This document shows, piece after piece, positions 1 to 20,811 of a DNA stretch of 64,000 bases. The notes beneath the pieces were generated by a model, which was not told where the DNA came from, made no database searches, and saw only the letters and a list, made by a program, of their open reading frames with translations. The number at the start of each line of letters is the position of its first letter. The stretch's first letter is position 1. A program made the position numbers and the translations under genes. Source of the DNA: Pseudomaricurvus alkylphenolicus (GTDB taxonomy: Bacteria > Pseudomonadota > Gammaproteobacteria > Pseudomonadales > Cellvibrionaceae). The stretch spans positions 248,001 to 312,000 of the forward strand of contig NZ_JAAQPI010000009.1 of NCBI RefSeq assembly GCF_011683955.1, written 5' to 3'.

Positions 1-399
1 TTCCGTTGCGTCCAGTACATCCTCTTCGGTGATACCGGGCCCGACCAAGTCCTTTTTTAGCTTGAAAGCAATTTCCCCTTCAGCCTTCGGAGCAATTAAA
101 TTGGCTGATACCGGGATCTCAGTACCATTGGAGTACTCCATTTTGTCGGTCAAAAAACCAAAGTCGGGCTGATCAACTTTAAACATATTTTGAACTACTT
201 CGCTGGTGATTCCGATTTTCTTTCCAACGATTTTTTCGCCATCGTTCACCCGACGGTTAATCATATGAAGCGATATGTAGTAAGCGTCCTCAATAGAAAT
301 TTCGGGAAACTGCTCAGTCAAAGGTGGCATTGTCGTTTGGCTTCGAAGGGCTTCGTAGAGCCTGTCGCCCAATTCGCTGATGGTGTCTCTGTTCATCAT
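1..399 (-). CDS. 2-hydroxypenta-2,4-dienoate hydratase (MhpD family), left copy, 3' part beyond window
   Basis: The frame is open from an ATG at 399 (or a second ATG at 396) to the window edge, so only the first 133 codons are seen. It matches the complete right-hand copy at 20026-20811 almost residue for residue, including KKIGITSEVVQ, VDQPDFGFLTDKM and LIAPKAEGEIAF, which mark the MhpD / fumarylacetoacetate-hydrolase-like fold. Enzymes of this family hydrate the dienoate released by the meta-cleavage-product hydrolase to 4-hydroxy-2-oxovalerate. A GAAGAGAA stretch upstream serves as ribosome site. It lies 16 bp after the hydrolase gene and is the last visible gene of the left operon; an aldolase and an acylating aldehyde dehydrogenase may follow outside the window (inference). 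Confidence 0.9.
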   Translation of the reverse strand, partial: MMNRDTISELGDRLYEALRSQTTMPPLTEQFPEISIEDAYYISLHMINRRVNDGEKIVGKKIGITSEVVQNMFKVDQPDFGFLTDKMEYSNGTEIPVSANLIAPKAEGEIAFKLKKDLVGPGITEEDVLDATE

Positions 400-415
400 T
401 TTACGTAAGTTCTCT

Positions 416-1267
416 TCAACAATGTATTCCCATGAATGCAGTGGCCACCGCATTGAATTCTTCCGGCCTTTCCCACTGTACCCAATGCCCGGTTTTACTG
501 AACAAATACACATCGCAATTTTGCATGCTCTCCTGCAAAGACCTGGCTCCACTGGGTCTGTTGACACTGTCTTCTGTCCCCCATAAAACCAGGCAAGGTG
601 TCTGGCAGGCCTTTAGTCGAGGGTCCAGGACAAAATCTGACTTGTGGATCGCTTCTATCTTCATGCCCAGTGGCGGAGCCGCGATAACTTCAGGATCGAT
701 GCTTGACTGATAGCGCTGCTCTATGACTGAATCGGGCACTTGACTGGAGTCATACACCAGATGATTCTTTATAAAATCGGCGACTTTTTCCCTGCTGGGG
801 CCAGCACCTTTGTAATAATTGAGAAGTTTCTCAAGGCCCTTTGTCGGAGGCTCACTGGAGATATTGATTCCGCCAGGTCCCATAAGGATGAGCGAAGCGA
901 TGCTTGCCGGCTGCTCCAACGCCATTCTTAAAGCCGCAGCACCACCCAGCGAGTTACCAATGACATGGGCTTTTTCGATATCCAGGAATTCCAGCAACCC
1001 CAACATAGTGGAGGCCAGATCGCCAAAGGGGTCGCTGGCGTCTACACCTTTTGTAGACTTTCCATATCCTTGCATATCGGGCACAATTACGCGGAATTTC
1101 TGCGCCAGGATTTCGATATTCCTTGAAAAGTTTGACAGACCCGAAGCTCCTGGACCTCCGCCATGTAGCATAAGTACTGGAAATCCCGATCCCAATTCGT
1201 TGACGAAAATACGACGGCCACGAAATTCTGCGAAATAGCTTTTAAAATTTTCGATTTTAATGTCCAT
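416..1267 (-). CDS. meta-cleavage product (C-C bond) hydrolase, left copy
   Basis: This 283-aa alpha/beta hydrolase of the BphD/HsaD/MhpC family should hydrolyse the ring-cleavage product of the adjacent dioxygenase into a dienoate and an acid. Visible family marks are the oxyanion motif HGGGPGAS (about residues 35-42), nucleophile Ser106 in GNSLGG, Asp233 in the stretch WGTEDSVNRP, and His261 in TGHWVQWE. I chose ATG 1267 because GGAAGGAA precedes it, it sits 13 bp after the dioxygenase stop, and the right-hand paralogue begins at the same place; a longer frame upstream overlaps the dioxygenase. Closely similar to the hydrolase at 19159-20016. Confidence 0.92.
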   Translation of the reverse strand: MDIKIENFKSYFAEFRGRRIFVNELGSGFPVLMLHGGGPGASGLSNFSRNIEILAQKFRVIVPDMQGYGKSTKGVDASDPFGDLASTMLGLLEFLDIEKAHVIGNSLGGAAALRMALEQPASIASLILMGPGGINISSEPPTKGLEKLLNYYKGAGPSREKVADFIKNHLVYDSSQVPDSVIEQRYQSSIDPEVIAAPPLGMKIEAIHKSDFVLDPRLKACQTPCLVLWGTEDSVNRPSGARSLQESMQNCDVYLFSKTGHWVQWERPEEFNAVATAFMGIHC

Positions 1268-1280
1268 GTTTCCTTCCCGG

Positions 1281-2171
1281 TTACAACTGAAATTCATGTC
1301 CCCAAAGGGACATGACGTCATATCTTTCAGGCACCCATGTGTCATCGTCAATATGAATAGCACCAGCACCCAATTCCAAAGCAAAGCCGGAAGGTGTCAC
1401 GACATAAAAGGAAATGTCACGATCGTTGGGGTGTTCACCCAGCGTCAACGCCATGGGGTAATTCGCCTCTTTAAGTCTTGCCTGCGCTCTTAAAACATCG
1501 CTAAGATGTGGAAGCTCGCACATAAAGTGGTTTATTCTCTTGGAGAAATTGGCTTTAACAACTTCTGGAGGAATACCTTCGGCACTGGCGAAAGCAAAGG
1601 TGTGATGGCGTGGATTAAAATGAATGAATGAAAGTTCAACCGTTCCCCCAGCCATGCCTGTATTAATATGATCCGAAATTCTGGCGCCAAGAACTCGAAT
1701 ATAAAACTCCTCACTCTCTCTATTATTGGGAACAGCGAAAGCAATGTGGCCCATACCCAGCTCTCCGGTAACAAACCCCGCGGGAAGCGAGGGCGAAGCG
1801 AATTCGCTATCCGAGTTCTGAGAACCCAAGCAGATTTCAACGGTTAATCCAGCTGGATCTATAAAGCTTACATACTTTTCTACCGCTCTCAGTTTGGTTC
1901 CCTCAGGAGCACCTTGGCTTACCTCTATGCCTTCGGATTTGAGCTCGTCGACCAGGGTCCAAAAGTGATCTTCCGAGCTGGCTTCCAGCCCGCAAAACGC
2001 ATAATCTTCGCTATCACCTTTTACCAGTAGTATCCGTCTTTCCTTTTCATCCATGCGCAGAAATGCAGCATCTTCGGATGTTTCGAATTGATAACCGATA
2101 ACCCTGGAAAACTCTTTCCATTGTTCGAACTTGTTTGTTTCGATTGCGATGTAGCTGAGTTTTAAATTCAT
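1281..2171 (-). CDS. extradiol (type I, VOC) ring-cleavage dioxygenase, left copy
   Basis: A 296-aa two-domain extradiol dioxygenase of the BphC/HsaC class, which opens a catechol next to the diol using Fe(II). Metal ligands are predicted as His142 (GMGHIAFA), His215 (in NHFMCEL) and Glu266 (FALELGAG). The second-sphere His pair in NPRHHTFAF, near residue 190, is also present. N- and C-terminal VOC modules each span roughly 140 residues. It is flanked by the TBDR (21 bp upstream) and the hydrolase (13 bp downstream), so it is translationally packed, unlike its right-hand paralogue. The natural catechol is not deducible from sequence. Confidence 0.93.
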   Translation of the reverse strand: MNLKLSYIAIETNKFEQWKEFSRVIGYQFETSEDAAFLRMDEKERRILLVKGDSEDYAFCGLEASSEDHFWTLVDELKSEGIEVSQGAPEGTKLRAVEKYVSFIDPAGLTVEICLGSQNSDSEFASPSLPAGFVTGELGMGHIAFAVPNNRESEEFYIRVLGARISDHINTGMAGGTVELSFIHFNPRHHTFAFASAEGIPPEVVKANFSKRINHFMCELPHLSDVLRAQARLKEANYPMALTLGEHPNDRDISFYVVTPSGFALELGAGAIHIDDDTWVPERYDVMSLWGHEFQL

Positions 2172-2192
2172 GTTCTCTACCTGCTGGTAAAA

Positions 2193-4676
2193 TCAAAATT
2201 TCAACGAACCGGTCAGGGAAATGCTCCTGGGTGCGGCAAAGCTGGCAAACCTGGAGCCGCCGAACAGAGGAACATCCGCACCGAAGATCATATCGTCATC
2301 CACATCGGTCAGATTTTTGCCAATAATCCCGAGTTCCCAGGTTCCATCGGTCGATTTCAGTCGCAGGGATGCATTGATCTTTGTGGTAGCTGCGGTCAAG
2401 AGCTTTGGATCAAGATCCTCTTCGCGATAGGATTCGTCGGTGTAGATGGCGTCTGTAACAAGCTGTAACTCATACTGACTGCCAAGCTTCCAGACCTGTG
2501 TCGCGGATATTACCGCTGACAGCTCCGGAGTGAAAGCATTGCTTTGACCTTTCAAGTCATTGATGCCAGCTGCTGAACAAACCCCGTTATCAACGAAGGC
2601 GCCCAGTACATTTTCACCGTTGGACCAAATCGCTTCACGGAATTCTTCAAACTGCTGGTTGGTACATGCCTGATTCGGAAAACTCTCAAACTCGAAGTCG
2701 GTCCAACCAATACTGCCGCTCAGCAAAAGGCTGTCGGTAGCCTGCCAGCGTCCGTCTATCTCAATGCCTTGTGTTACAGCTTCGGCCGCGTTAAGCACTC
2801 TGAAGGTGGCCTGCCCGGTAAACACCGCTGCCTGAAGATCGTCGTACTCAGTTCTGAACACCGCCATGTTTAGCTCTGCGGCGCCATTAAGCAGGCTCAT
2901 TTTACTGCCGACTTCAAAAGTGATGACTTCCTCTTCCTCAAAGCCGGCCTCTTCGGGATCGGGGCCAAGCGCGAGTGTGTTAAAGCCCCCGGCTTTGAAA
3001 CCTGTTGATACTGCCCCATAGACCATAATGTCGTTGGTAACATCCCACTGCAGATTAGCTGACCACGTCAAGCTTTCCTCATCGCGAGAAAGGTCACTGA
3101 AGGTATGCGGCGTAAATTCACCAATAAGCTGTGCACTGAGAGCCGTCAACGGGTTAGACGTGACATTGGTGGTATCAGCGATAAAATCGGTTGCGTAGAC
3201 GAATTGATCAACGGTTTTTTCTTCTTCGGTATAGCGCAGCCCCAGGGTGGCGGTCAGGCTGTCACTGATCTGCCACTCACCCTGCGCGAACACGGCCCAT
3301 GTCTGAGTATCCTGCAGTGTCTGCGCATAACGACCGGCACCACCAACTCCAGCGGCGCTGATGGGGGCCAATAAGGTGGCGTCGGCACAAGCCCTCGCAA
3401 CAGCCGCACTCTGGTTTGTATTCAAAGCAGCACCTGTCGCCGCTGCTGCCAATGGGTCATCGGTGGCTGGATTATAGGGAGCCAATACGCCACCGGCGCC
3501 AAGACAGTTGCCGCCGGTCAACATCGCTATGGTATCCACGTTAAACAAGATCAGGGATTCAGCATCCAGCTCTGTTTCCTGATAGTAAGCACCTGCAATA
3601 TACTGGAACGAACCTTCAAGCGTTGAAGCAAATCTGATTTCAAGGCTGTTTTGGCTAAAATCTTCATCATCGTCATAGCGAACCACATCCAGTGGGTTGA
3701 TATCGGCATCCAATCCCCGTTCGAACTCGTATTCGGAGTACGCCAAAATAGCGGTAAGGTTGCCGCTTTCAAATTCACTGTCAAATTGAAGGGAGAGTTC
3801 TTCAATATCCCCTTTCAGAAACTGAGATGTACCCGAATTCAGTGCCGTCGAACTGTTTCCAATGTTGGATTTGTCATCGATTCTGTCTTCTACTCCAAAA
3901 AGAGCAAGAACCCCGGCGTCAATGATTTGATAGGGACTCACTTCCTCATTATCAAACTGTCCCCATTCGTACTTGAAGTGAGCTGTAGTTCTGTCTGAAA
4001 TATCCCATTCCAGTCTGATCCTCAGCGCCTGTTCGTCTTTACCAGGCATATCCTCGTTGTAGTAGACGTTTTCCACCCACCCCTCATGCATCTGACGATC
4101 CAGAACAGCGATACGTCCGCGCAAACTCTCGCTCAACGGTCCAGACAAATAACCAAGTATTTCGGTCTCGTCGAAATCGATATTGTGAGTCAGTGTAACC
4201 GAGCCTTCGACCTCATCCGTCGGCGCCGCTGAACTGATATTGAGTGCTCCGCCTACGGTATTCTTGCCAAACAGAGTGCCCTGGGGGCCCCTGAGTACCT
4301 CCACCATGCCCACGTCGAGAAAGGCAAACCGGGACTGAATGCCTCGTCCCCGGTAAACACCATCCACAAAGGTGCCTACCGACTGTTCAAATCCCGCCTG
4401 GGTGCCGGAAGTGATACCACGAATATTGATGGTGTCTGCGATTGGCTGCTCATTAATAAAGAAGTTGGGGATATAGTCGGCTACGCCGTCCAAGCGCTGC
4501 ATGCCGGCTTCGGCAATTTTGTCACCGCTCATCGCGGATACTGAAATGGGGACGTCCTGCAGACTTTCCGCCCTTTTCTGAGCCGTAACTATCACCTCCT
4601 CCAGCTGCTGAGCCTGCAATTGCGTTGCTGTGGCGGCAATAATTACTGTTAGTGCTTGTTTACTTATTGTTTTCAT
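2193..4676 (-). CDS. TonB-dependent outer-membrane receptor, left meta-cleavage operon
   Basis: An 827-aa TBDR with signal peptide (MKTISKQALTVIIAATATQ, cleaved near LQAQQ), a TonB-box-like LEEVIVTAQKR, a plug domain carrying VEVLRGPQGTLFGKNTVGG, and a 22-strand barrel ending in an aromatic residue (SLKF). ATG 4676 is preferred: CTGGAG lies at good spacing before it and it gives a clean signal peptide, whereas the longer frame adds an unlikely leader. It sits between flavin reductase and dioxygenase genes, so it probably imports the aromatic or steroid-like substrate of the operon across the outer membrane (inference). The right-hand TBDR at 15455-17944 is a close paralogue over the whole length. 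Confidence 0.93.
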   Translation of the reverse strand: MKTISKQALTVIIAATATQLQAQQLEEVIVTAQKRAESLQDVPISVSAMSGDKIAEAGMQRLDGVADYIPNFFINEQPIADTINIRGITSGTQAGFEQSVGTFVDGVYRGRGIQSRFAFLDVGMVEVLRGPQGTLFGKNTVGGALNISSAAPTDEVEGSVTLTHNIDFDETEILGYLSGPLSESLRGRIAVLDRQMHEGWVENVYYNEDMPGKDEQALRIRLEWDISDRTTAHFKYEWGQFDNEEVSPYQIIDAGVLALFGVEDRIDDKSNIGNSSTALNSGTSQFLKGDIEELSLQFDSEFESGNLTAILAYSEYEFERGLDADINPLDVVRYDDDEDFSQNSLEIRFASTLEGSFQYIAGAYYQETELDAESLILFNVDTIAMLTGGNCLGAGGVLAPYNPATDDPLAAAATGAALNTNQSAAVARACADATLLAPISAAGVGGAGRYAQTLQDTQTWAVFAQGEWQISDSLTATLGLRYTEEEKTVDQFVYATDFIADTTNVTSNPLTALSAQLIGEFTPHTFSDLSRDEESLTWSANLQWDVTNDIMVYGAVSTGFKAGGFNTLALGPDPEEAGFEEEEVITFEVGSKMSLLNGAAELNMAVFRTEYDDLQAAVFTGQATFRVLNAAEAVTQGIEIDGRWQATDSLLLSGSIGWTDFEFESFPNQACTNQQFEEFREAIWSNGENVLGAFVDNGVCSAAGINDLKGQSNAFTPELSAVISATQVWKLGSQYELQLVTDAIYTDESYREEDLDPKLLTAATTKINASLRLKSTDGTWELGIIGKNLTDVDDDMIFGADVPLFGGSRFASFAAPRSISLTGSLKF

Positions 4677-4710
4677 AGCATGCTCCAGTTTTATCATTAA
4701 TCTAGATTGT

Positions 4711-5244
4711 TTAAGCGACTTCAATATTTGAGAATCCGGTATCAAAGTAAACAAGCGCACGTTTCTTTGATTCCTGAGTGTATTGAACATCCAGTACGTC
4801 GCAGACGATCATCGAGTGCGAGTCCGCGGGGATAATTTCTCGTGCTTTACAATGCAGGTTGAGGAGCGCCCCATCCAGTGCCGGCGCCTTATCTGCAGAG
4901 TAGCTCCAGGATCCACTCCTAAAACGATCAGAGCCCGACATTTCTTTATACATTCCTGCAAAAACTTTCGCCTGCTCGATCTGGTCCGCGTCCAGTGTGT
5001 TAATACAGATACTGCTGCCAGCTTCAATGAGTGAGTGAGCATAGACATTTTTGTTTATGCAAATCATCACCCGTGCAGGTTCAGCTGAAATTGACATAAC
5101 GGCGGTAGCCGTCAATCCCGCTGAATGATCACCATTAGCGGTAGTGATAATATTGACAGCGCCTGCAAGGTTACGCATTCCCTGCCGGAACCGATCGGCA
5201 CTTACTTCCTTGTCGGTATGTGTATTTTTTGATAATTCATTCAT
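4711..5244 (-). CDS. flavin reductase component of two-component hydroxylase, left copy
   Basis: A 177-aa small flavin reductase of the HpaC/HsaB type (FMN-binding split barrel), which supplies reduced flavin to the partner hydroxylase. Family marks: MRNLAGAVNIITT near the N-terminus, LTATAVMSISAEPARVMICIN for flavin binding, and SHSMIVCDV near the C-terminus. ATG 5244 (MNELSK) is chosen because the right-hand copy begins MNDLSI; a TTG 30 bases earlier is possible. The Shine-Dalgarno sequence is weak. Its hydroxylase partner at 6110-7321 is separated from it here by a GST gene, while in the right operon reductase and hydroxylase are adjacent. Confidence 0.9.
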   Translation of the reverse strand: MNELSKNTHTDKEVSADRFRQGMRNLAGAVNIITTANGDHSAGLTATAVMSISAEPARVMICINKNVYAHSLIEAGSSICINTLDADQIEQAKVFAGMYKEMSGSDRFRSGSWSYSADKAPALDGALLNLHCKAREIIPADSHSMIVCDVLDVQYTQESKKRALVYFDTGFSNIEVA

Positions 5245-5280
5245 AATATTCAGTCTCACATGAGAGCGTTTCAACCTGAT

Positions 5281-6084
5281 TTATGAGTCTAATTGCGAAA
5301 ACATCAGGTTCAGCTTCTGCTTGGATTTTTCAGCAAACGTTGAAATATGGTCCCATTGTTTTTGGGGAACATAAGGCATCAATGCAGGTTCAAACGAAGG
5401 CCGGTCGATGATTCGATTCATCCAATCGTTAAGCTTCGGAAACTGACGAAAGATTTCATCGACTTTCAGATATTTCATGGCATACACATATGGTGCTACA
5501 GCGCAATCCGCCAGGGTGTGCTCGTCACCAGCAAGCCACTCACTTTTTGCAAGCCTGTTTTCAAGCCCAGCAAAGGATCTGTGCCAGATTGCAACGGCGG
5601 GCTTGACATCCTCGGCATCGAGCCCCTGATCGATCATGCGTTCTTGTCGGGCTCTACGCAGCGGATCTGGAATTCTGGAGAGCAGTTCCTTACGCTCTTG
5701 TTCTGGTTTGGCCAACCAGATGTAACGCACCACCGCACCGAACACGATTGGCATCATATTTATGTGAAGCGATTCGTCGACGAGTTTGAGCATATATCGC
5801 ACTTGTGCTCTCTTTATCGGGTCCTCTGGCATCAAAGGATTGTCTGGATAAGCATCTTCGAGATATTCACAAATTACGGTTGATTCAGTGACAACTGTGC
5901 CCTTATCTATCAAAGCGGGAACCAGCCCCTTGGGATTGATTTTCAGGTACTCCGGTTCCAGATTTTCTTTGCTCATCAGGTCGATATGCCGGCCTTCAAA
6001 CGGTATTTTCCGTTCTACCAGCACAAGGCGAACCTTATGGGCACAGGGAGACAGTCCCGCATGGTAAAGGGTGATATCGCTCAT
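5281..6084 (-). CDS. glutathione S-transferase family protein
   Basis: A 267-aa GST. The N-terminal thioredoxin-like domain carries SPCAHKVRLVL (putative active-site Ser/Cys), NPKGLVPALID with the cis-Pro, and ESTVICEYLE for glutathione binding; the all-helical domain follows from about residue 90 and includes the N-capping motif LADCAVAPYVYA. The family includes dehalogenases, isomerases and beta-etherases. It is the only gene of the left meta-cleavage operon with no counterpart in the right one, so it may deal with a substituent or a reactive intermediate particular to the left pathway (inference). Tight spacing to both neighbours (36 bp and 25 bp) supports co-transcription. Confidence 0.85.
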   Translation of the reverse strand: MSDITLYHAGLSPCAHKVRLVLVERKIPFEGRHIDLMSKENLEPEYLKINPKGLVPALIDKGTVVTESTVICEYLEDAYPDNPLMPEDPIKRAQVRYMLKLVDESLHINMMPIVFGAVVRYIWLAKPEQERKELLSRIPDPLRRARQERMIDQGLDAEDVKPAVAIWHRSFAGLENRLAKSEWLAGDEHTLADCAVAPYVYAMKYLKVDEIFRQFPKLNDWMNRIIDRPSFEPALMPYVPQKQWDHISTFAEKSKQKLNLMFSQLDS

Positions 6085-6109: not shown

Positions 6110-7321
6110 TCAGATCAAGACATCGGTTGGGCTGCCGCCCAGAAAGACACCACCAGCACTAATGCTGCCTTTATCAGCATTCAAGGCCGCATGATTCGAA
6201 GCCGCGTGAATATCCCGAAAGAACCGTTGCATAGGGCTTTCATTGCGAATACCACCGCCACCGGAAGCTTTGAAGACAAGATTGGTCGCCTCCATGGCTT
6301 GCTTCGCAATCCAGACAACGTCCCATTTCCATTCGCTTCTCAGTTCAAGATCAAAAGTCCCGCCCGCTTCCGCAATCTTTCGCATGGCGGAGTTTCTTTG
6401 TTTAAAGAAACTGTCTATAGACCGGATCATTGCGTTGGCATTCGCGGTACGCTGGCGCACAAACGGATCGTCTGTTACTTTGGCGCCATCATAAGCCGCC
6501 AACTTGTCTCGCATGCTGTTGACAAAACATTGATTGGCACCGATCGCCATGCCCAGCGTTACACTGACCAGGGCACTGACAAATGTACACCCGAAGGGAT
6601 AGTTATAGGCAGAGCCGTTAAAGGTCTTTCGGCCATGCTCCTTCATCAGCAGCGCCTCCGTGAAAGAGTGTGTGCGATACTCAGGCACAAATGCCTTTTC
6701 AACCACGATGTCTTTACTGCCTGTACCGCAAAGACCAGCAACGTGCCAGGTATCTTCGATGATGTAATCGGTCCTAGGTATCAGGAACGCCAGCTGATCG
6801 GGAGCGCTCTCGGGGTCGTACTTGTCCACGGGCTTCATGCCCCCCAGGAAGACCCAGTTGCAGGGATCACAACCGCTGGACCAGGGCCAGCGGCCGGAAA
6901 TTTCATAGCCACCTTCAACTTTTTTCACTTTACCGAAGGGAGCATAGGAAGAAGAGATCAGCGCATCAGGATCCTCCCCCCAGACGTCCTCTGCGCACTT
7001 GGGATCAAGCAGGGGAACTTCCCAGGAGTGCAAAGCGGTTAAACAGACGGTCCATGCAGTTGACGGGCAGGCTGTCGCCAGTATCTTGGAAACCTGATAG
7101 AGCACTTCGGGATGATGCTCCATGCCGCCGTACACTTTAGGCTTACAAATGTCGTAAAGACCCAGTTTTCTCACTTCTTCAACTGTTTCCGGAAGCGTCA
7201 TTCTGGCCTTTTCAGTGGCCGCAGCCCGCTCCTGCAGCGTCGGCAGTAAGCTCCGGGCAATTGAGTAGAGTTCAGCCTCCGAAGGGCTTCGTGATTCTGG
7301 CTTTAGCATCGATACCGTCAT
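6110..7321 (-). CDS. flavin-dependent hydroxylase, acyl-CoA dehydrogenase fold (HsaA/HpaH-like), left copy
   Basis: A 403-aa group D flavin monooxygenase oxygenase component. These proteins share the acyl-CoA dehydrogenase fold but hydroxylate phenols with reduced flavin supplied by a small reductase. Visible marks: an N-terminal helical domain, SSSYAPFGKVKKVEGGY, SGRWPWSSGCDPCNW (beta domain), HVAGLCGTGSKDI, and the C-terminal RDIHAASNH with the histidines thought to act in hydroxylation. It is the first gene of the left operon, ATG at 7321. It is much less like its right-hand counterpart (14043-15263) than the other shared genes are to theirs, which suggests a different phenolic substrate. 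A true acyl-CoA dehydrogenase is unlikely given the adjacent reductase and dioxygenase. Confidence 0.88.
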   Translation of the reverse strand: MTVSMLKPESRSPSEAELYSIARSLLPTLQERAAATEKARMTLPETVEEVRKLGLYDICKPKVYGGMEHHPEVLYQVSKILATACPSTAWTVCLTALHSWEVPLLDPKCAEDVWGEDPDALISSSYAPFGKVKKVEGGYEISGRWPWSSGCDPCNWVFLGGMKPVDKYDPESAPDQLAFLIPRTDYIIEDTWHVAGLCGTGSKDIVVEKAFVPEYRTHSFTEALLMKEHGRKTFNGSAYNYPFGCTFVSALVSVTLGMAIGANQCFVNSMRDKLAAYDGAKVTDDPFVRQRTANANAMIRSIDSFFKQRNSAMRKIAEAGGTFDLELRSEWKWDVVWIAKQAMEATNLVFKASGGGGIRNESPMQRFFRDIHAASNHAALNADKGSISAGGVFLGGSPTDVLI

Positions 7322-7596
7322 CTGATTATCCGTCCGTTTGGGTTATCTTTCTGATAGTCAACATGTTAGGTACACCCCAAACATCTGTCTAATCGATATA
7401 TTGCATATTGAACATCGGCAAGATCGATACCTTGATGTAATGAGCAAACTGCTTAAACTATCTGATATTCCAGTGGCTGCAGGATTGGAAGAGGTGTCGT
7501 CTGCTTCAGCTTTTTGCGATAGAACGCGCTATCTGGTCTGAATGGCAAGACAGTTAAGGCGGTAGGATAATCTCAGTATCTGGTTGGTTGCCAGCG
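7322..7596. promoter_or_regulatory. upstream region of left meta-cleavage operon with repeated ATCGATA
   Basis: This 275-bp AT-rich gap precedes the left operon and follows the LysR gene on the same strand. It holds two copies of ATCGATA at 7392-7398 and 7423-7429, 31 bp (about three helical turns) apart, which might be regulator contacts. I see no convincing -24/-12 sigma-54 promoter on the minus strand here, unlike the right operon. A 67-codon frame within it has no recognisable features and is not called. Confidence 0.3.
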
Positions 7597-8517
7597 CTAT
7601 GGAGTGGAATTGATTTCTTGTCCTATGTTAGTAATTTGCTCTAACAGCCAAGCGAAAACCGGATCTCGATCCTGTACTGGATTGCGAAGCACTGCCAGCT
7701 TTATGCGTGGATAGCGAACGGGGCTTTCCAATATGCGGACGTTGTATTGCTCTACCATTTTGCTGGCAAGTCGTCGCTGAATCGTAGCTAGATAATTGGT
7801 GTTTTCAATAATTTCCGGCAATAGGTTAAATTGCGGCACCCGAAAAACAATTCTGGGAACCGCATCCAGATTTATCAGCGTCTGTATCTCAAAGCTTTGA
7901 TCGATCTCGACAGACGGCTGTTGCACTACATGCCCTGACTCGATAAAGGTTTTGCGAGTCAGTTTATCACCAATATTTGGGTTATTCCTGGACGCGACCA
8001 CAACAAGCTCGTCCTCCAAAACAGGTGTTACGTTCAATCGGTGTTCATCCAGAATGCCAATCGGCGCCAATACCAGATTGATTCTGCCGGTTTGTAGGCG
8101 CGACTGGATATCGGCCGGAAATTCGACAATCTGTATTTTTATGCCCGGCGCCTGGGCTTCCAGAATCGGCAAGAGCCGCGGAAAAATAAGTTGAGTCACA
8201 TAATCGGCAGTAGCAATAACAAATGACCGATCAACCTGCGACATATCGGTTTCACTGCTGACAAAAATCCGCTCTATATCTGCGATAGCACCTTCCAGTT
8301 CCGGTAAGAGCTGTTCCGCAAAGGGGGTTATCGACATACCCTTACCAGCCCTGATCAGAAGCGGATCATCAAATAGATCTCGCAGTCTTCCCAAGGCGTC
8401 GCTGGTGGCCGACTGGCTGAGATTGAGCTTTTCCGATGCATGAGACACGTTTCTTTCCAGCAGCAACTCATGCAGAATCGGCAGCAAATTGAGGTTAATG
8501 CTGCGTAGCTTTTTCAT
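7597..8517 (-). CDS. LysR-type regulator (NahR/NodD/LinR-like subgroup)
   Basis: A 306-aa LysR-family protein. The N-terminal winged HTH is NLLPILHELLLERNVSHASE followed by LSQSATSDALGRLRDLFDDP; this LNLL...RVS..A..L.LSQ pattern is the NahR/NodD-like subgroup, many of which control aromatic catabolism. The effector domain (about residues 95-300) includes VIATADYVTQLIFPRLLP and a C-terminal part ending near LLEQITN. ATG 8517 follows an AT-rich leader. It is directly upstream of, and co-directional with, the left operon, so it is the likely controller of that operon (inference), whereas the right operon has a sigma-54 activator. The effector could be an aromatic acid or a pathway intermediate. 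Confidence 0.88.
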   Translation of the reverse strand: MKKLRSINLNLLPILHELLLERNVSHASEKLNLSQSATSDALGRLRDLFDDPLLIRAGKGMSITPFAEQLLPELEGAIADIERIFVSSETDMSQVDRSFVIATADYVTQLIFPRLLPILEAQAPGIKIQIVEFPADIQSRLQTGRINLVLAPIGILDEHRLNVTPVLEDELVVVASRNNPNIGDKLTRKTFIESGHVVQQPSVEIDQSFEIQTLINLDAVPRIVFRVPQFNLLPEIIENTNYLATIQRRLASKMVEQYNVRILESPVRYPRIKLAVLRNPVQDRDPVFAWLLEQITNIGQEINSTP

Positions 8518-8768: not shown

Positions 8769-9575
8769 TTAAATTTCCTTAAAGTCTCCATGGCGGCCAG
8801 CACCGGCGCTGAATCTGCCGGCGCCTGCGATACCGTCCTTACGCAGGGTGTCTACGCCATTGTTCCATTCCAGCTTCATGCCATCACGAATGGTCATGCC
8901 ATGCCCTTCGATCACCGACTTGCGGTCGGCGAGCATGGTTGACTGGGGAAATCTGGCGATCTCGTGGGCAATGGCTTCGGCGGCTTCCCGCGCGCTTCCG
9001 GTCGGCACGACTCGCTCGCACAGGCCAAACTGGTAGCACTCCCGGGCATCCACCTTGCGTCCGGTCAACACCAGGTCCATCGCCTTACCCTGGCCGATCA
9101 GACGAGGGATGCGAATAGTCCCACCGTCGATCAGAGGTACACCCCAGCGGCGGCAGTAAACACCCATATAGGCGTCTTCCGCCATGACACGCATATCGCA
9201 CATCACAGCCAGCTCCATGCCACCGGCTACGGCCGGACCTTCAATCGCAGCGATCACGGGTTTATTGAACTCCATTCTCGACATGCCCATCAACGGTGGA
9301 GGTGGTGTACCGGAACCGACGGGGTAACCCATGGTTTCCACCACGTCTGTCTGGAACTCTTCGCTGCTGAGTTGGGAGCCATGCTTTAGATCCCAGCCAG
9401 CGCAAAAGCTGCCGCCTTCTCCACAGAAAACGGCGACCAGCGCGTCGCTTTTCTCGAATGCCTCGAACGCTTCGACCAGCTGAGCCGCTGATTCCGGATT
9501 AACCGCATTGCGTGCTTCGGGTCGGTCGTTAACGATGGTCCAGACGGGACCGTTTTTTTGTATAGTTACTGGCAT
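8769..9575 (-). CDS. enoyl-CoA hydratase/isomerase (crotonase) family protein 1
   Basis: A 268-aa crotonase. The usual substrate-binding start NDRPEARNAVNPE, oxyanion-hole segment GEGGSFCAGWDLK (about residues 52-64) and AAIEGPAVAGGMELAVMCD (about 110-128) are all visible. These enzymes act on acyl-CoA thioesters (hydration, isomerisation, hydrolysis or C-C cleavage); the exact reaction cannot be read from sequence. It shares with crotonase 2 (9744-10508) a peculiar C-terminal AGAGRHG, so the two are probably duplicates. A palindromic repeat element separates the two genes. They sit between the two regulators of the meta-cleavage operons and may finish the CoA-linked part of the same pathway (inference). 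Confidence 0.87.
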   Translation of the reverse strand: MPVTIQKNGPVWTIVNDRPEARNAVNPESAAQLVEAFEAFEKSDALVAVFCGEGGSFCAGWDLKHGSQLSSEEFQTDVVETMGYPVGSGTPPPPLMGMSRMEFNKPVIAAIEGPAVAGGMELAVMCDMRVMAEDAYMGVYCRRWGVPLIDGGTIRIPRLIGQGKAMDLVLTGRKVDARECYQFGLCERVVPTGSAREAAEAIAHEIARFPQSTMLADRKSVIEGHGMTIRDGMKLEWNNGVDTLRKDGIAGAGRFSAGAGRHGDFKEI

Positions 9576-10548: not shown

Positions 10549-11235
10549 TCAGAACTTGGAAAAGTCAGGCTGCCGTTTTTCCTTGAAGGCGGAGACACCC
10601 TCCTGGCAGGCGGGATGGTTCAACAGTTCGTTAAAGTTCTTGAGTTCATCGATATTGGCCTTCTTGAGCGGCTCGCGGTGATGATCCATCATTAACTTTT
10701 TGGTCGCCACCAGTGACACGGTTGGGAACTGTGCTAGTGTTTGCGCTTTGCGCATGGCTTCGGACAGCAACTCATCATCATTGATCACTTCCATGGCAAA
10801 ACCGATTTCTCTCGCTCGACTGGCATCAACCCATTCGTTGGACAGCAGCGTCCAGAGCGCGTTTTGATTACCCATCAGGCGTGGAAAGGAATAGGTGCTG
10901 GCCGCCTCCGGCACGTTGGATAGAGACGCAAACGGGCATTTCAACCTCGCACCCTCCGCCATCAGCGTGATATCGGCCAGACCACAGACGGTTACACCCC
11001 AACCGACAGCGACACCGTTGACTGCAACGATAATCGGCTTGGGAAAATCAATCAGGGTCTCAAACATCTTGGGTACCGATTCAGCAAACATTGCTGCATT
11101 GACCGGTTCCTGGTGATTAAGGAAGCACTGCACGTTCATACCGGAGGAAAAGATCTTGTCCTTGCCGGTCAGGATAATCACCCGCACGCTGGAATCCTGC
11201 CCGGCCTCCTCGAGATGGGCGATGGTTCTTGGCAT
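10549..11235 (-). pseudogene. crotonase family protein 3, 5'-truncated at a REP-like palindrome
   Basis: A 228-aa crotonase remnant. From VRVIILTGKDKIFSSGMNVQCF onward it aligns with the family, including the second oxyanion segment AVNGVAVGWGVTVCGLADI and a normal C-terminus (PDFSKF). The first 30-odd residues every crotonase has (first beta strands and the NRP..NA motif) are missing. The family-like part starts at MPRTIAHLEEAG, and immediately upstream lies a 30-bp palindrome found again at 19081-19110. The upstream frame stays open but reads the palindrome itself, not crotonase. Its fold probably lacks the N-terminal strands, so I call it a pseudogene; a functional short form starting at ATG 11235 cannot be excluded. 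Confidence 0.6.
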
Positions 11236-13371: not shown

Positions 13372-13386
13372 TGGCACAGCGGTTGC
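13372..13386 (+). promoter_or_regulatory. sigma-54 (-24/-12) promoter of right meta-cleavage operon
   Basis: TGGCACAGCGGTTGC matches the sigma-54 consensus TGGCAC-N5-TTGC at every defined position. Transcription would start about 12 bp downstream, near 13398, some 75 bp before the flavin reductase ATG at 13475. The divergent gene encodes a GAYTGA-containing sigma-54 activator, which makes the assignment firm. Confidence 0.88.
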
Positions 13387-13474
13387 AATTCTCCTGTCAC
13401 AACCTTGCAAAGTTGGTACTTCGCTGGACGCCCGGCGAGCAAAACCACAACCACAAGATGAGAACCAATACGTT

Positions 13475-14014
13475 ATGAACGACCTTTCGATTCAGGCTCG
13501 CATTACCGAAGCCGTCAGCGCTGAACAGTTCCGCAACGGCATGCGCAACCTGGCCGGCGCCGTCAATATCATTACCACGGCCAAGGGCGATCACTCCGCC
13601 GGCCTGACCGCGACCGCCGTCATGTCCATTTCCGCTGAACCCGCAAGGGTCATGGTTTGTATCAACAAGGACGTCTATGCCCACTCGCTGATCGAGGAAG
13701 GTGGCTGCATCTGCATCAACACGCTCAGTGCCGACCAGATTGAACAGGCACAGGTGTTCGCAGGCATGCGCAAGGATATCGCAGCTGCTGATCGCTTTAA
13801 CGTCGGCGCCTGGAATCATGCCGCCGACAAGGCGCCGGTACTGGAGGGCGCGCTGCTCAACCTGGAATGTAAAGTTTCGGAGATTATTCCCGCCTCCTCC
13901 CACTCCATGATTATCTGCGACGTGCTCGACATTCACTATTGCGAGCAAGCTGACAAAAGCGCCCTGATCTATTTCGACTGCAACTTTGCCAACCTACAGC
14001 CATCCATCAATTGA
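13475..14014 (+). CDS. flavin reductase component of two-component hydroxylase, right copy
   Basis: A 179-aa FMN-binding split-barrel reductase (HpaC/HsaB type), closely similar to the left copy at 4711-5244 through MRNLAGAVNIITTAKGDHSAG, TATAVMSISAEPARVMVCIN and SHSMIICDVLD. It should pass reduced flavin to the hydroxylase encoded 28 bp downstream. It is the first gene after the sigma-54 promoter. ATG 13475 (MNDLSI) is preceded by a GATGAGAA-like ribosome site. Base composition is visibly richer in G+C than the left copy. Confidence 0.92.
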   Translation: MNDLSIQARITEAVSAEQFRNGMRNLAGAVNIITTAKGDHSAGLTATAVMSISAEPARVMVCINKDVYAHSLIEEGGCICINTLSADQIEQAQVFAGMRKDIAAADRFNVGAWNHAADKAPVLEGALLNLECKVSEIIPASSHSMIICDVLDIHYCEQADKSALIYFDCNFANLQPSIN

Positions 14015-14042: not shown

Positions 14043-15263
14043 ATGACTATTGCTGAAACCGCTCTTGAGATCCCTACTGCCGAGTCACTGATCGCCAAGG
14101 CCGCCGCCATGGTGCCAGCTCTGCGAGAAGGCGCTGACCAAACCGAGGAAGCGCGCAGCGTTTCACCCCAGCGCATCGATGAATTCAGGGCCGCTGGCTT
14201 TTTCAAAATTTTGCAGCCGCGCCAGTGGGGCGGCTATGGCATGAACCCGGAAGTGTTCTATCGCGTATTGATGGAACTGGGTCGCGGCTGCCCTTCCAGT
14301 GCATGGTGCCTGATGATCCTCGGCGTACACCAGTGGGAATTCGGCAAGATGGACGCCCGCGCCGGTGACGAGATCTGGGGTGAGGACAATGACATTCTGG
14401 TGGCCTCCTCCTACGCCCCGGTCGGCAAGGCCGAGAAGGTTGACGGTGGCTGGCAATTGTCCGGTACCTGGCCCACCTCCAGCGGCTCCGACCATGCCCG
14501 TGGCGGCGCCTTCCTGGGTGCCCACGTCATGGGGGATAACGGCTTTCCCGAGGACCTTAAGGTATTTCTGGTTCGCCGCGAGGACTTTGAACTCATTGAT
14601 GACTGGCACGTGGTCGGTCTGGCCGGTACCGGCAGTAAGACACTAAAGCTCAAGGACAACACCTTTATCCCGGACTACCGTACCCACAGCGCCGTCCACT
14701 ACACCCAGCCCGAGGGGGATCTCAGCTACAAACTGCCGTTTAACCAGATTTTTTACGGCGCCGTATCGGCGGTTATTGTCGGCATGGCCCAGGGCGTGTC
14801 CGATCTGTTTATCGAACACATGAAACCGCGCCAGAACGTTTTTGTCGGCGGTCCCGTCGCGGCCCAGAACCCGTTTGTGCAAGAGAAGCTGGGCAACGCC
14901 ATACTGCTGATTCGTTCCGCCCGTGCCCGCCTGCTGCAATGTCTGCAGGAGTCTACCCGGGCGGTGGAGGAGCACGGCAAGGTGGCGCTGGAAGACCGCG
15001 TGCACTATTCCCTGGACATCCAGGCCGTGGCCAAAGACTGCTTTAGCGCCAGCCATATGTTGTTCAAGAAAACCAGCGCCCGCGGTATTTTCCTGTCCAA
15101 CCCCATCCAACGTCAGCTGCGCTCGGTGATGGTGGCCGCCAACCATATTACCCAGAACGAAGACGACACTTCCGCCCAGCTTGGTGCCTACCTGCTTGGC
15201 CAGGGCCTGCCGCCCGGTGTCTATGAGCTTCCCGATGTGGCGGCACTGAGCCAGCAACAGTAG
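14043..15263 (+). CDS. flavin-dependent hydroxylase, acyl-CoA dehydrogenase fold (HsaA-like), right copy
   Basis: A 406-aa group D monooxygenase oxygenase. It has VASSYAPVGKAEKVDGGW, SGTWPTSSGSDHARGG, HVVGLAGTGSKTL and a C-terminal RQLRSVMVAANHI, matching the framework of the left copy while differing at most other positions. The ATG at 14043 (MTIAETALE) is preferred to an upstream in-frame start that overlaps the reductase gene; the ribosome site (ACAGG) is weak. Predicted to ortho-hydroxylate a phenolic substrate to the catechol cleaved by the dioxygenase at 18096-19031. An acyl-CoA dehydrogenase role is unlikely because of the adjacent reductase. Confidence 0.88.
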   Translation: MTIAETALEIPTAESLIAKAAAMVPALREGADQTEEARSVSPQRIDEFRAAGFFKILQPRQWGGYGMNPEVFYRVLMELGRGCPSSAWCLMILGVHQWEFGKMDARAGDEIWGEDNDILVASSYAPVGKAEKVDGGWQLSGTWPTSSGSDHARGGAFLGAHVMGDNGFPEDLKVFLVRREDFELIDDWHVVGLAGTGSKTLKLKDNTFIPDYRTHSAVHYTQPEGDLSYKLPFNQIFYGAVSAVIVGMAQGVSDLFIEHMKPRQNVFVGGPVAAQNPFVQEKLGNAILLIRSARARLLQCLQESTRAVEEHGKVALEDRVHYSLDIQAVAKDCFSASHMLFKKTSARGIFLSNPIQRQLRSVMVAANHITQNEDDTSAQLGAYLLGQGLPPGVYELPDVAALSQQQ

Positions 15264-17944: not shown

Positions 17945-17972
17945 CCGCCACAAGTGGCAGTGCCGCGCTTGC

Positions 17973-17989: not shown

Positions 17990-18095
17990 CCGCGGTACCG
18001 AGCAAGTGGATAAGGCAAGGCCGTCGCCTACTGTTGGAAGCCACAAGGCTGCGGCGGCAACTCTATTTACATCCCCAGCTTAACAGGTGCAAAAC

Positions 18096-19031
18096 GTGAA
18101 CTTAAAACTTGCCTATATTGCGATTGAAACCAACAAATTTGACGAGTGGAGAGAATTTTCCAAAGTCATCGGTTATCAATATGAATCCGCAGGTGATGCG
18201 GCCTGCCTGCGCATGGACAGCCGTGCGCGGCGGGTCATTTTAGTAAAAGGTGACAGCGAGGACTACGCCTACAGCGGACTGGAAATGGACTCGAAAGACG
18301 AGTTCGAGGCCGTCATCGCGCGGCTGAGAGCGGCGGGCGTTATTGTCATGGACGGAACTCCCGAGGGTACGGCACTCAGGGCTGTGGAACAGTATGCCAG
18401 TTTCGTTGATCCGGGCGGTTTAACCGTTGAAATCGCCTACGGCTGCCAGGATGCCGACACCGTGTTTTCATCACCTGTGTTGCCTGAGGGTTTTGTCACC
18501 GGTGAGCTGGGTATGGGGCACATCGCCTTCGCCTCGCCCAATAACCGCGAAAGCGAAGCCTTCTATATTGATGTGCTGGGAGCCCGGCTGTCGGATCACA
18601 TTAACCATAAGATGGCCGGCGGCGAGCTGGAAATTTCCTTTCTGCATTTCAATCCCCGCCATCACACCTATGCCTTCGCCAGCGCCAATGACATCAACCC
18701 CATTGTCGCCAAAAAAGCGCTGGCCAAGAAGATGATTCACTTTATGTGCGAATACCCGGATATCCGCAGTGTGTTGCAGGCCCAGGAGCGGATCAAGGCG
18801 GCCAAGATCCCGTTTGCGTTGACGCTGGGCGAGCACACCAACGACAAGGATGTCTCCTTCTATGTGGTGACGCCCTCGGGCTTTCACCTGGAGGTTGGCG
18901 CCGGTGCCTTGCAGATCGACGACAGCACCTGGGTGCCGCAAAAGCACAACGCCATTTCCATCTGGGGGCACGAGTACCAGCTGGGTGGCGGCCCCATTCT
19001 GGGTGCAGTGCAAAAATGGCTGCTGCGATAA
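18096..19031 (+). CDS. extradiol (type I, VOC) ring-cleavage dioxygenase, right copy
   Basis: A 311-aa extradiol dioxygenase with the same ligand set as the left copy: His142 (GMGHIAFA), His215 (MIHFMCEY) and Glu266 (FHLEVGAG), plus NPRHHTYAF near 190. I use GTG 18096, because the product then begins MNLKLAYIAIETNKF exactly like the ATG-started left copy; a GTG nine bases earlier is possible, and CAGGTG provides a ribosome site. The C-terminus carries 15 residues (GGGPILGAVQ onward) beyond the end of the left copy. Predicted to open the catechol made by the hydroxylase at 14043. Confidence 0.92.
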   Translation: MNLKLAYIAIETNKFDEWREFSKVIGYQYESAGDAACLRMDSRARRVILVKGDSEDYAYSGLEMDSKDEFEAVIARLRAAGVIVMDGTPEGTALRAVEQYASFVDPGGLTVEIAYGCQDADTVFSSPVLPEGFVTGELGMGHIAFASPNNRESEAFYIDVLGARLSDHINHKMAGGELEISFLHFNPRHHTYAFASANDINPIVAKKALAKKMIHFMCEYPDIRSVLQAQERIKAAKIPFALTLGEHTNDKDVSFYVVTPSGFHLEVGAGALQIDDSTWVPQKHNAISIWGHEYQLGGGPILGAVQKWLLR

Positions 19032-19040
19032 ACCCCGCTC

Positions 19041-19110: not shown

Positions 19111-19158
19111 TGTAATGCAGATCGAATTAAAATTGTTATTTCCAAAGAGGTTTAGAAC

Positions 19159-20016
19159 ATGGCCAATACCCCAGAGGGTGTGAATACCCATTTTGTAGAA
19201 TTCGGCAACCGCCGTATCTTCGTCAGCGAATTGGGCAACGGTTTTCCCGTGGTGATGTTACACGGTGGCGGCCCCGGCGCTTCGGGCATGTCCAACTATT
19301 CCAAAAACGTCGAGGCCCTGGCACAACATTTCCGCGTCATCGTTCCGGACATGCAGGGCTACGGGCAATCCAGCAAAGGCGTCAGTAAAAATGATCCCTT
19401 TGGCGATCTGGCCGACGCCATGCTCGGCATGCTCGACACGCTGGATATTGAAAAGGCCCACATCATCGGCAACTCCCTGGGCGGCGGCACCGCACTGCGC
19501 ATGGCCCTGGAGCAACCTCAACGAGTGGCTTCGCTGGTTCTGATGGGCCCCGGCGGCATCAACATCACCCGCGAACTGCCCACCGCCGGTTTGAAAAAGC
19601 TGCTGAAATACTACAAGGGCTCGGGGCCCAGCAAGGATAAACTCGAAGACTTTATTCTCAATCACCTGGTCTACGACGGCAGCCAGGTACCCGGCGAAGT
19701 GATTGAACAGCGTTACCAGTCCAGTATCGACCCCGAGGTAGTGGCGTCGCCGCCACTGGGCATGAGCCCCAAAGGCATGCTCAATTCGGACTTTACTCGC
19801 GACCCGAGACTGAAGCAGTGTCAGACCCCCTGCCTGGTGCTGTGGGGCGCCGATGACAGCGTTAACCGCCCCAGCGGCGCCAAGGCGCTGCAGAAAACCA
19901 TGCCCAACTGCGACGTATATCTGTTTAGCAAAACCGGGCATTGGGTACAGTGGGAACGTGCCAACGAGTTTAATGCTGTTTCCACGGCGTTTATGCTCAA
20001 CAACCAGGCTGCATAG
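19159..20016 (+). CDS. meta-cleavage product (C-C bond) hydrolase, right copy
   Basis: A 285-aa alpha/beta hydrolase, BphD/HsaD-like. Oxyanion motif HGGGPGAS (35-42), nucleophile Ser106 in IIGNSLGGG, Asp233 in GADDSVNRP and His261 in KTGHWVQWE are present. An AAAGAGG ribosome site lies about 12 bp before ATG 19159. It is closely similar to the left copy throughout, including SSIDPEV and PPLGM in the lid region, so both probably accept products of the same general shape. Confidence 0.92.
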   Translation: MANTPEGVNTHFVEFGNRRIFVSELGNGFPVVMLHGGGPGASGMSNYSKNVEALAQHFRVIVPDMQGYGQSSKGVSKNDPFGDLADAMLGMLDTLDIEKAHIIGNSLGGGTALRMALEQPQRVASLVLMGPGGINITRELPTAGLKKLLKYYKGSGPSKDKLEDFILNHLVYDGSQVPGEVIEQRYQSSIDPEVVASPPLGMSPKGMLNSDFTRDPRLKQCQTPCLVLWGADDSVNRPSGAKALQKTMPNCDVYLFSKTGHWVQWERANEFNAVSTAFMLNNQAA

Positions 20017-20025
20017 AGAGAAGTC

Positions 20026-20811
20026 ATGAACAAAAACATAATTGAACAACTGGGCGATGAGCTCTACCAGGCACTGCGCAGCCAGACTACCCTGCCGCCG
20101 TTTACTGAGCGCTATACCGACATCAGCATCGAGGACGCTTACCGGATTTCACTGCGCATGGTTAAGCGGCGGATCGAAGACGGTGAACGCATCATTGGCA
20201 AAAAAATTGGCATCACCAGCGAGGTGGTGCAAAAGATGTTCGACGTCGACCAGCCGGACTTTGGCTTTTTAACCGACAAGATGGCCTATGCCAACGGGGC
20301 CAAAATCCCCGTGGACGGTAACCTGATCGCACCCAAGGCGGAGGGTGAGATTGCCTTCAGGCTGAAAAGCGACCTGGTGGGTCCGAGCGTTACCGAAGCA
20401 GATGTGCTGGCGGCCACCGAAACCATCATGCCTTGTTTTGAGGTGGTTGACTCCCGCATCCGAAACTGGGAGATCAAAATCGAAGACACGGTCGCAGATA
20501 ACGCCTCCTGCGGGGTGTTTGTCCTGGGCGATACGGAAGTGGATCCACAGGATGTTGATTTGCCGAACCTGAGCATGAAGGTATTCAAGAACGGTGAGCA
20601 GATCAGCACGGGACTGGGGTCAGCGGTGCAGGGCAATCCCCTGACCGCCGTGGCCTGGCTGGCCAATACCCTGGGCCAGTTTGATATCCCCTTTCAGGCG
20701 GGGGATATCATCCTGTCGGGTTCACTGGTGCCACTGGAAGTCGTGGCACCGGGCGACGAAATGCGTCTCGAGCTGGAGGGCATAGGCTCCGCCAGCTGTT
20801 CTTTTGTATAA
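20026..20811 (+). CDS. mhpD: 2-hydroxypenta-2,4-dienoate hydratase, right copy (complete)
   Basis: A 261-aa enzyme of the MhpD/HsaE family (hydratase/decarboxylase group of the FAH fold). It carries KKIGITSEVVQKMF, QPDFGFLTDKMAY, KAEGEIAFRL (putative metal-binding acidic residues) and a C-terminal LSGSLVPLEVVAPGDEM. It starts 10 bp after the hydrolase with a GAGAGAAG ribosome site, and is the last gene of the right operon. No aldolase or acylating aldehyde dehydrogenase follows; these would have to come from elsewhere, for example from beyond the left edge of the window (inference). Confidence 0.92.
   Translation: MNKNIIEQLGDELYQALRSQTTLPPFTERYTDISIEDAYRISLRMVKRRIEDGERIIGKKIGITSEVVQKMFDVDQPDFGFLTDKMAYANGAKIPVDGNLIAPKAEGEIAFRLKSDLVGPSVTEADVLAATETIMPCFEVVDSRIRNWEIKIEDTVADNASCGVFVLGDTEVDPQDVDLPNLSMKVFKNGEQISTGLGSAVQGNPLTAVAWLANTLGQFDIPFQAGDIILSGSLVPLEVVAPGDEMRLELEGIGSASCSFV

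Follow-up and report, generated by a model that had tools for sequence, protein, structure and literature searches.

The 64 kb stretch of DNA analysed here (the window), which lies on contig C70 of the 8.88 Mb genome of Pseudomaricurvus alkylphenolicus (completeness 99.59%, contamination 2.1%), carries two sets of genes for the meta-cleavage of aromatic rings, one read leftwards and the other rightwards, with a LysR gene, three crotonases and an XylR/DmpR-type sigma-54 activator between them. This arrangement, which had been described in an initial annotation of the stretch, is confirmed. Each set is probably a separately regulated operon for a substituted phenol of its own, and both are built around a common uptake and meta-cleavage chassis. 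Five of the six gene pairs are sisters in phylogenetic trees, while the hydroxylases belong to different clades, and this difference, with that between the neighbouring regulators, points to a modular assembly of the pathway and not to a simple recent duplication; the simplest reading is that two units of old common descent meet at this locus. The mechanism is of a known kind, and the surprise lies in the mosaic history, in which one cassette is combined with two hydroxylases, two regulator classes and two base compositions.

Each set comprises a flavin reductase, a flavin hydroxylase, a TonB-dependent receptor (TBDR), an extradiol dioxygenase, a C-C hydrolase and a hydratase, as the initial annotation had stated; Pfam backs every gene named there, and NCBIfam models match the ten that were given to that search. 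The downstream order TBDR-dioxygenase-hydrolase-hydratase is common to both operons, while the upstream order differs, being hydroxylase-GST-reductase on the left, where alone the glutathione S-transferase (GST) occurs, and reductase-hydroxylase on the right. These features of gene order had been read correctly from the start, and the enzyme families fit the proposed meta-cleavage chain starting from phenols. None of the 12 paired genes contains an internal stop, and the catalytic motifs of the dioxygenase and the hydrolase are intact in both copies. The genes and sites of the locus are the following:

1-396 plus 390 bases past the left edge, minus strand: left 2-oxopent-4-enoate (2-hydroxypenta-2,4-dienoate) hydratase, 261 amino acids in all, complete; FAA_hydrolase (PF01557), DmpE family at 381.8 bits against a cut-off of 408.8
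416-about 1267, minus strand: left meta-cleavage-product C-C hydrolase, BphD/HsaD-like; Ser, Asp and His motifs intact
1281-2171, minus strand: left extradiol dioxygenase, BphC/HsaC-like; active-site motifs intact
2193-4676, minus strand: left TBDR (Pfam)
4711-5244, minus strand: left flavin reductase; top models RutF and HpaC, both below cut-off
5281-6084, minus strand: GST (Pfam)
6110-7321, minus strand: left flavin hydroxylase, HsaA-like; HsaA model NF045629 at 354 bits, cut-off 450
7383-7397, minus strand: putative LysR box, first copy of ATC-N9-GAT, within a 24-nucleotide direct repeat (motif scan)
7414-7428, minus strand: putative LysR box, second copy of ATC-N9-GAT, 31 bp from the first (motif scan)
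7597-8517, minus strand: LysR-type regulator (Pfam); nearest solved chains 1uth, 2uyf and 1utb; G+C content at third codon positions (GC3) like that of the left operon
8769-9575, minus strand: crotonase-fold protein 1 (Pfam)
9744-10508, minus strand: crotonase-fold protein 2, at 41% to protein 1 (Pfam)
10549-11235, minus strand: crotonase-fold protein 3 (Pfam)
11327-13141, minus strand: XylR/DmpR-type sigma-54 activator (Pfam, NCBIfam, alignment to 6iy8)
13372-13387, plus strand: sigma-54 (-24/-12) promoter motif TGGCAC-N5-TTGCA, 5' of the right operon (exact match)
13475-14014, plus strand: right flavin reductase (Pfam, NCBIfam)
about 14043-15263, plus strand: right flavin hydroxylase, HsaA-like; in a clade with homologues of genomes G812 and G094 and of a Diaphorobacter plasmid (47-53%)
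15455-17944, plus strand: right TBDR (Pfam)
18087-19031, plus strand: right extradiol dioxygenase (Pfam, NCBIfam)
19159-20016, plus strand: right meta-cleavage-product hydrolase (Pfam, NCBIfam)
20026-20811, plus strand: right 2-oxopent-4-enoate hydratase; DmpE model at 389 bits, cut-off 408.8

Kinship, age and base composition of the two operons

The left and right proteins are 79% identical for the TBDR, 77% for the hydratase, 74% for the hydrolase, 70% for the reductase and 66% for the dioxygenase, against 35% for the hydroxylase. Maximum likelihood trees were built from homologues taken from fetched loci, so that many of the listed matches of the left hydroxylase lie outside the hydroxylase tree; loci of the same genome in which the window copies recur (L011, L012, L071, L075, L076), identical open reading frames (ORFs) and near-duplicates of one gene from overlapping loci were dropped, as were alignments covering less than 75% of the query (less than 60% for the dioxygenase, the reductase and the TBDR). 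In these trees the two copies are sisters for the TBDR (support 100/100, 17 rows), the dioxygenase (100/99, 48 rows), the hydratase (99/98, 15 rows), the reductase (95/98, in a tree of only 7 rows in which long branches meet) and, with weaker support at a node that is not starred, the hydrolase (92/97, 16 rows). The hydroxylase tree (27 rows) places the right copy in a set of five with support 100/100, together with the homologues of G812, G094 and the Diaphorobacter plasmid and a long-branched copy on contig C45 of the same genome, and it joins the left copy to a homologue of G600 at 40% (95/94); constraining the two window hydroxylases to be sisters costs 73.5 log-likelihood units and is rejected by the approximately unbiased test (p-AU 1.45e-88). 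Gene trees, which had been proposed as the check on the claim that the two sets are paralogous, thus uphold it for five pairs and contradict it for one gene of the six. A duplication of the whole operon with all genes as sisters is ruled out, because the hydroxylases are rejected as sisters.

The reductases nearest the window pair come from right-type clusters (G094, G812), and the dioxygenase nearest by path comes from a left-type cluster (G600). The alignment of the TBDR copies spans 828 residues and is broken only by one single-residue gap close to the N terminus; together with their nearly identical plug (93-100% identity over about residues 42-161), this suggests that the two TBDRs share a ligand class.

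The five sister pairs are at or close to saturation at synonymous sites, with a proportion of synonymous differences (pS) of 0.75-0.85; the number of synonymous substitutions per site (dS) is 3.7 for the TBDR and beyond estimate for the other four. Since synonymous change is at or near saturation while the proteins differ little, selection has acted on both copies for a long time. The two operons also differ in base composition. GC3 is 0.44-0.57 in the left operon and the LysR gene, 0.63-0.70 in the crotonases and the activator, and 0.68-0.73 in the right operon, compared to a mean of 0.587 and a standard deviation of 0.061 in a reference of 196 mechanically called ORFs of at least 250 amino acids from stretches of the same genome, the window included; within this reference the right operon ranks in about the top 6%, and most left genes fall in the lower quarter, the left hydroxylase standing near the 39th percentile. 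Tetranucleotide correlations are 0.53 between left and right operon, 0.60 between left operon and centre, and 0.87 (0.867) between centre and right operon, and the rest of the window correlates at 0.77 with the left operon and at 0.84 with the right. The GC3 values and the tetranucleotide split together define a clear compositional boundary between the LysR gene and the first crotonase. The regulatory centre, which the initial annotation had treated as shared by both operons, therefore appears to be divided: the LysR gene goes with the left operon in GC3, and the crotonases and the activator do not. The centre is assigned to the right operon chiefly on account of its divergent activator and the promoter motif, and less on account of composition.

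A recent local inverted duplication, in which one operon was copied in place and the copies are now diverging, would explain why the operons are adjacent and in opposite orientation, why five gene pairs are sisters, and why no close third copy was found in the genomes sampled. It is disfavoured by the synonymous saturation in combination with the difference in composition, which extends to the five sister pairs themselves (GC3 0.44-0.54 on the left versus 0.68-0.72 on the right), and the different clades of the hydroxylases, the different neighbouring regulators and the different gene order stand against it as well, so that such an event appears highly improbable.

Regulators, proposed pathway and alternative readings

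The activator contains the domains XylR_N (110 bits), V4R (48), Sigma54_activat (227) and the Fis-type HTH_8 (36), all of them over cut-off, and its nearest solved chain is 6iy8 (430 bits, titled 'positive regulator CapR'), which we take to be DmpR. In the alignment to this chain, the activator is identical at the phenol-positioning His and Trp and at the zinc ligands Cys/Glu/Cys/Cys that are named for DmpR in the accessible part of PMC7264223, where the number printed for the Glu is off from the alignment count although the motif itself fits. The DmpR pocket residue Phe93 aligns with a Met, which could give the activator a roomier pocket. The promoter motif TGGCAC-N5-TTGCA, which lies 87 bases 5' of the right operon, is the sole exact match in the window, looser matches to the sigma-54 motif showing no excess over chance (28 found versus 39.9 expected), and the Diaphorobacter plasmid cluster has an exact site in the same kind of position. 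The intergenic gap there contains six imperfect inverted-repeat pairs, none of which is clearly of the upstream-activating type (100-200 bp from the promoter).

On the left side, the regulator has the LysR domains, and its nearest solved chain is 1uth (98 bits, titled 'LysR-type regulatory protein'), which, like 2uyf and 1utb, is presumably DntR, of the NahR class. The sequence ATC-N9-GAT, which we assume to be the LysR-type box motif, occurs twice between the LysR gene and the left hydroxylase, inside the direct repeat. We infer that the right operon is the target of the activator and the left operon that of the LysR protein, and to this extent the separate regulators claimed in the initial annotation are borne out, by a sigma-54 motif with a phenol-type activator on the right and by a LysR gene with a tandem ATC-N9-GAT on the left.

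In the enzyme families concerned, the TBDR acts in uptake, the hydroxylase forms a catechol, the extradiol dioxygenase opens its ring, the hydrolase releases an acid and 2-hydroxypentadienoate, and the hydratase hydrates the latter. Each TBDR would accordingly be predicted to carry a phenol or its precursor across the outer membrane; the reductase would feed reduced flavin to the HsaA-type hydroxylase of the same operon, which would convert the phenol to a catechol, most likely a 3-substituted one given that the downstream enzymes resemble BphC/HsaC and BphD/HsaD; and the dioxygenase would cleave the catechol ring, the hydrolase would release a carboxylic acid and 2-hydroxypenta-2,4-dienoate from the ring-cleavage product, and the hydratase would produce 4-hydroxy-2-oxovalerate. 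The right operon would be induced by the divergent activator via the -24/-12 promoter, and the left operon by the co-oriented LysR protein. Neither operon encodes an aldolase or an acylating acetaldehyde dehydrogenase, and both probably drain into the pair of such genes at C70:319.6-321.8 kb (L091), about 7.6 kb right of the window end and about 51 kb from the right operon, where the 4-hydroxy-2-oxovalerate aldolase scores 594 bits (cut-off 286) and the acylating acetaldehyde dehydrogenase 468 bits (cut-off 282). The only other over-cut-off aldolase of the genome belongs to an Hsa-like set on contig C23.

In evolutionary terms, the operons would be old relatives, in one of which the hydroxylase was exchanged, and which are now adjacent with different base compositions. 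In two-component flavin enzymes the reductase hands reduced flavin to the oxygenase, and the retention of the reductase while the oxygenase changed fits this division of labour. It is possible, and is put forward tentatively, that the locus is a natural hydroxylase-swap pair, in which a fixed cassette of aromatic-specific TBDR, reductase and meta-cleavage genes is combined with exchangeable hydroxylases, each with its own class of sensor, and in which the TBDR is an importer of substituted phenols. If this were true, outer-membrane phenol uptake would be a heritable part of the pathway module and not an add-on. Catabolic pathways are thought to evolve through the exchange of modules, and the presence of both versions side by side in one genome, with five genes kept together while the first enzyme to meet the substrate and the neighbouring regulator differ, provides a useful test object for such exchange; it also supplies a candidate on which the TonB-driven uptake of phenolics could be tested.

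Several observations weigh against two separately regulated phenol operons of this kind. All the catabolic enzymes tested score below the NCBIfam cut-offs for named pathways, so the family models do not name the substrates, and HsaA-like hydroxylases can act at the para position, as is described in the accessible part of PMC12442392 for IppA1A2, which yields a hydroquinone cleaved by a BphC-like enzyme. Of the three other right-type hydroxylase clusters read, that of Diaphorobacter alone has a sigma-54 site, none with at most one mismatch being present in those of G812 (L103) and G094 (L102); a LysR gene lies near the G812 cluster, and the count of two ATC-N9-GAT motifs in the gap between the LysR gene and the left operon, versus 0.13 expected from the window frequency, was made after the motif had been noticed. 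The nearer aldolase/dehydrogenase pair, which most likely serves both operons, is linked to them by location only, and it lies beside an IclR-type gene of its own and lacks a sigma-54 site. In tetranucleotide usage the centre resembles the rest of the window (0.870) no less than the right operon (0.867), and a different origin of the two units, which their compositions suggest, would need more than composition, since composition alone is no proof of different donors. Finally, the 10 ORFs scanned around the nearest TBDR relatives in three genomes include no ring-cleavage genes and point to no substrate, and these relatives are located near dehydrogenase genes.

Three further explanations are to be considered. 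Degradation of a steroid (9,10-seco) ring by duplicated Hsa genes is suggested by the top NCBIfam models, which are HsaA for the hydroxylase and HsaD for the hydrolase (for the dioxygenase BphC ranks first and HsaC second), and by the description of a TBDR for estrogen uptake in the accessible part of PMC7793797. The Hsa cut-offs, however, are missed by both operons by a wide margin, the left and right copies scoring 354 and 295 bits for HsaA (cut-off 450), 63 and 73 for HsaB (230), 182 and 193 for HsaC (450), and 223 and 240 for HsaD (400), and the separate set on C23, which contains an HsaA-like hydroxylase, a reductase, a hydrolase, a hydratase, a dehydrogenase and the aldolase, is nearer to Hsa, with 405.8 bits for its hydroxylase (also below the cut-off of 450); moreover, the C23 hydroxylase clusters, as does a dioxygenase from contig C1, with genes of G254, G151 and G274, away from the window copies, and we regard a steroid substrate as quite improbable. 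Para-hydroxylation of a substituted phenol to a hydroquinone whose ring is cleaved by a BphC-like enzyme, as in the ipp genes of Rhodococcus sp. D-6, is unlikely as well: in the accessible part of PMC12442392, IppA1 is distantly related to HsaA and IppB resembles BphC2, but the C-C hydrolase and 2-oxopent-4-enoate hydratase of both operons fit catechol meta-cleavage, and the part of the ipp table available in that source, outside which the row orf2562 lies, holds an FAA-hydrolase-family protein and no C-C hydrolase. It is conceivable, if rather doubtful, that both copies serve one substrate without specialisation, for dosage or under different conditions; the close similarity of the TBDRs and of the lower enzymes between the copies would be expected in that case, whereas it would not be expected that the enzymes first in contact with the substrate, the hydroxylases, come from different clades or that the neighbouring regulators differ in class.

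Relatives elsewhere and further genes of the genome

Relatives were sought in samples of 390 genomes of the order, 369 of the class, 398 of the phylum and 6 of the genus, which overlap, using single genes and not the gene block as queries (the right dioxygenase, and in the order sample only also the right TBDR and the left hydroxylase). At most six dioxygenase and four left-hydroxylase candidates, and two TBDR candidates, were scored per genome, so that the numbers of genomes given as matching are minimum values. The right dioxygenase is matched at an E value of 1e-40 or better in at least 49 of the 390 order genomes, its own included. Among the candidates scored, no match above 41% identity other than the window pair was found in the order sample, and the best match was 42% outside the own genome in the class sample (G600), 40% in the phylum sample (G812) and 36% in the genus sample. 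On plasmids, 105 of 72,556 records match the dioxygenase at E 1e-20, all below 60% and, among the matches listed, at no more than about 39%; a contig scan with the dioxygenase pair, which is a weak one (two short patterns), returned one distant locus, in Acinetobacter, at 32%.

The right TBDR is matched at E 1e-135 in at least 4 of the 390 order genomes, its own included, the other three at 47-52%, and its best match among solved chains is a pesticin receptor, over residues 26-210 only, about the plug. Closer relatives exist for the hydrolase, at 63-71% in three genomes, where they adjoin other dioxygenases, and for the hydratase, at 66-70% in G192 and on the own contigs C45 and C23; the shuffling of modules thus reaches beyond this one operon pair.

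Within the genome, two more TBDRs left of the window (L009, 12192-14696, and L010, 16345-18789) are mutual sisters (100/100) and share a broader starred clade with the window pair. A first look with the TBDR query gives 346 candidates in this genome versus 49 in one congener, and the five other genomes of the genus measure 4.0-5.7 Mb versus 8.88 Mb here. Further ring-cleavage genes of the same genome are found on C45 (L067, L068), with two dioxygenases, a 40% relative of the right hydroxylase, a TBDR and a hydratase, and at C70:141-161 kb (L093), with two hydratases, a second XylR relative and a one-mismatch sigma-54 site. Just past the right operon, a reading frame of 218 amino acids (20838-21494, minus strand) has no Pfam match at 0.001. 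A protein of 516 amino acids (46099-47649, plus strand) with two TetR_N and two TetR_C_24 stretches is apparently a tandem-fused TetR regulator; it adjoins a carboxylesterase gene and has no NCBIfam match at 1e-20. Two adjacent genes at 54184-58988 (minus strand) have identical Pfam sets (metallophosphatase, purple acid phosphatase N-terminal, chitobiase C-terminal, Fn3-associated and CBM9-like domains) and are probable tandem paralogues.

Comparison with known systems

Every element of the locus has a precedent, in hbp, opp, aph, hsa or EdcT. One of these precedents involves FyuA, which we take to be a TBDR. The initial annotation knew of no described example with a TBDR in each copy; a TBDR in an operon of this type does have precedents, opp fyuA (PMC5527002) and EdcT (PMC7793797), in the accessible parts of their sources; no report of two TBDR-bearing operons side by side was found in the open-access literature, outside which most subscription journals lie.

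Operon 3 of the opp genes of Sphingomonas haloaromaticamans P3, which serves 2-phenylphenol degradation, resembles the locus in its XylR_N sigma-54 regulator, FyuA-annotated receptor, flavin monooxygenase, extradiol dioxygenase, meta-cleavage hydrolases and hydratase, with fyuA ('pesticin receptor precursor') placed between the regulator and the catabolic genes (PMC5527002, Table 1, accessible part). In the same part of that source it differs in that its monooxygenase is annotated as a 2,4-dichlorophenol 6-monooxygenase and is not of the HsaA type, a dehydrogenase and an aldolase lie within the operon, transposases flank it, and the set is single, operon 4 having only a second monooxygenase gene (oppA2) and a hydratase. 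The hbpCAD/HbpR system of Pseudomonas azelaica HBP1, for 2-hydroxybiphenyl, shares the divergent activator of the XylR/DmpR class and the first three steps for an ortho-substituted phenol, but it has one regulator with two promoters and a single set, and no receptor is named in the accessible part of PMC3040749.

The aph cluster for 4-alkylphenols of Rhodococcus EP4/RHA1 likewise contains a two-component alkylphenol hydroxylase, an extradiol dioxygenase, a hydratase, an aldolase and a dehydrogenase; unlike the locus, it is actinobacterial (so that a TBDR is not expected), uses a tautomerase and decarboxylase route and holds the lower pathway within the cluster (PMC6710988, accessible part). 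The hsa steroid genes share the HsaA-type hydroxylase with its reductase, the extradiol dioxygenase and the hydrolase according to the NCBIfam models, but all the scores in the window are below cut-off, and the nearer Hsa-like set is the one on C23. The plasmid cluster of Diaphorobacter sp. HDW4B (NZ_CP049906.1) has a divergent sigma-54 regulator with an exact -24/-12 motif, a hydrolase, a VOC protein, a right-type hydroxylase (48%), an FAA hydrolase and a flavin reductase, but it is single, has another gene order and shows no TBDR in the stretch read. In the edc genes of Novosphingobium (Caenibius) tardaugens, a TBDR and an extradiol dioxygenase occur in a catabolic operon, there are two divergent operons, and a mutant in EdcT, an estrogen TBDR, has a growth defect; hydroxylation there is by a P450, a ferredoxin oxidoreductase step follows ring cleavage, and the operons, unlike the window pair, are not described as duplicates in the accessible part of PMC7793797. 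Compared with the hbp/opp-type layout, the right operon conforms to it, with a hydroxylase, an extradiol dioxygenase and a C-C hydrolase beside an XylR-type regulator, whereas the left operon departs from it in having a LysR neighbour in place of the XylR-type one.

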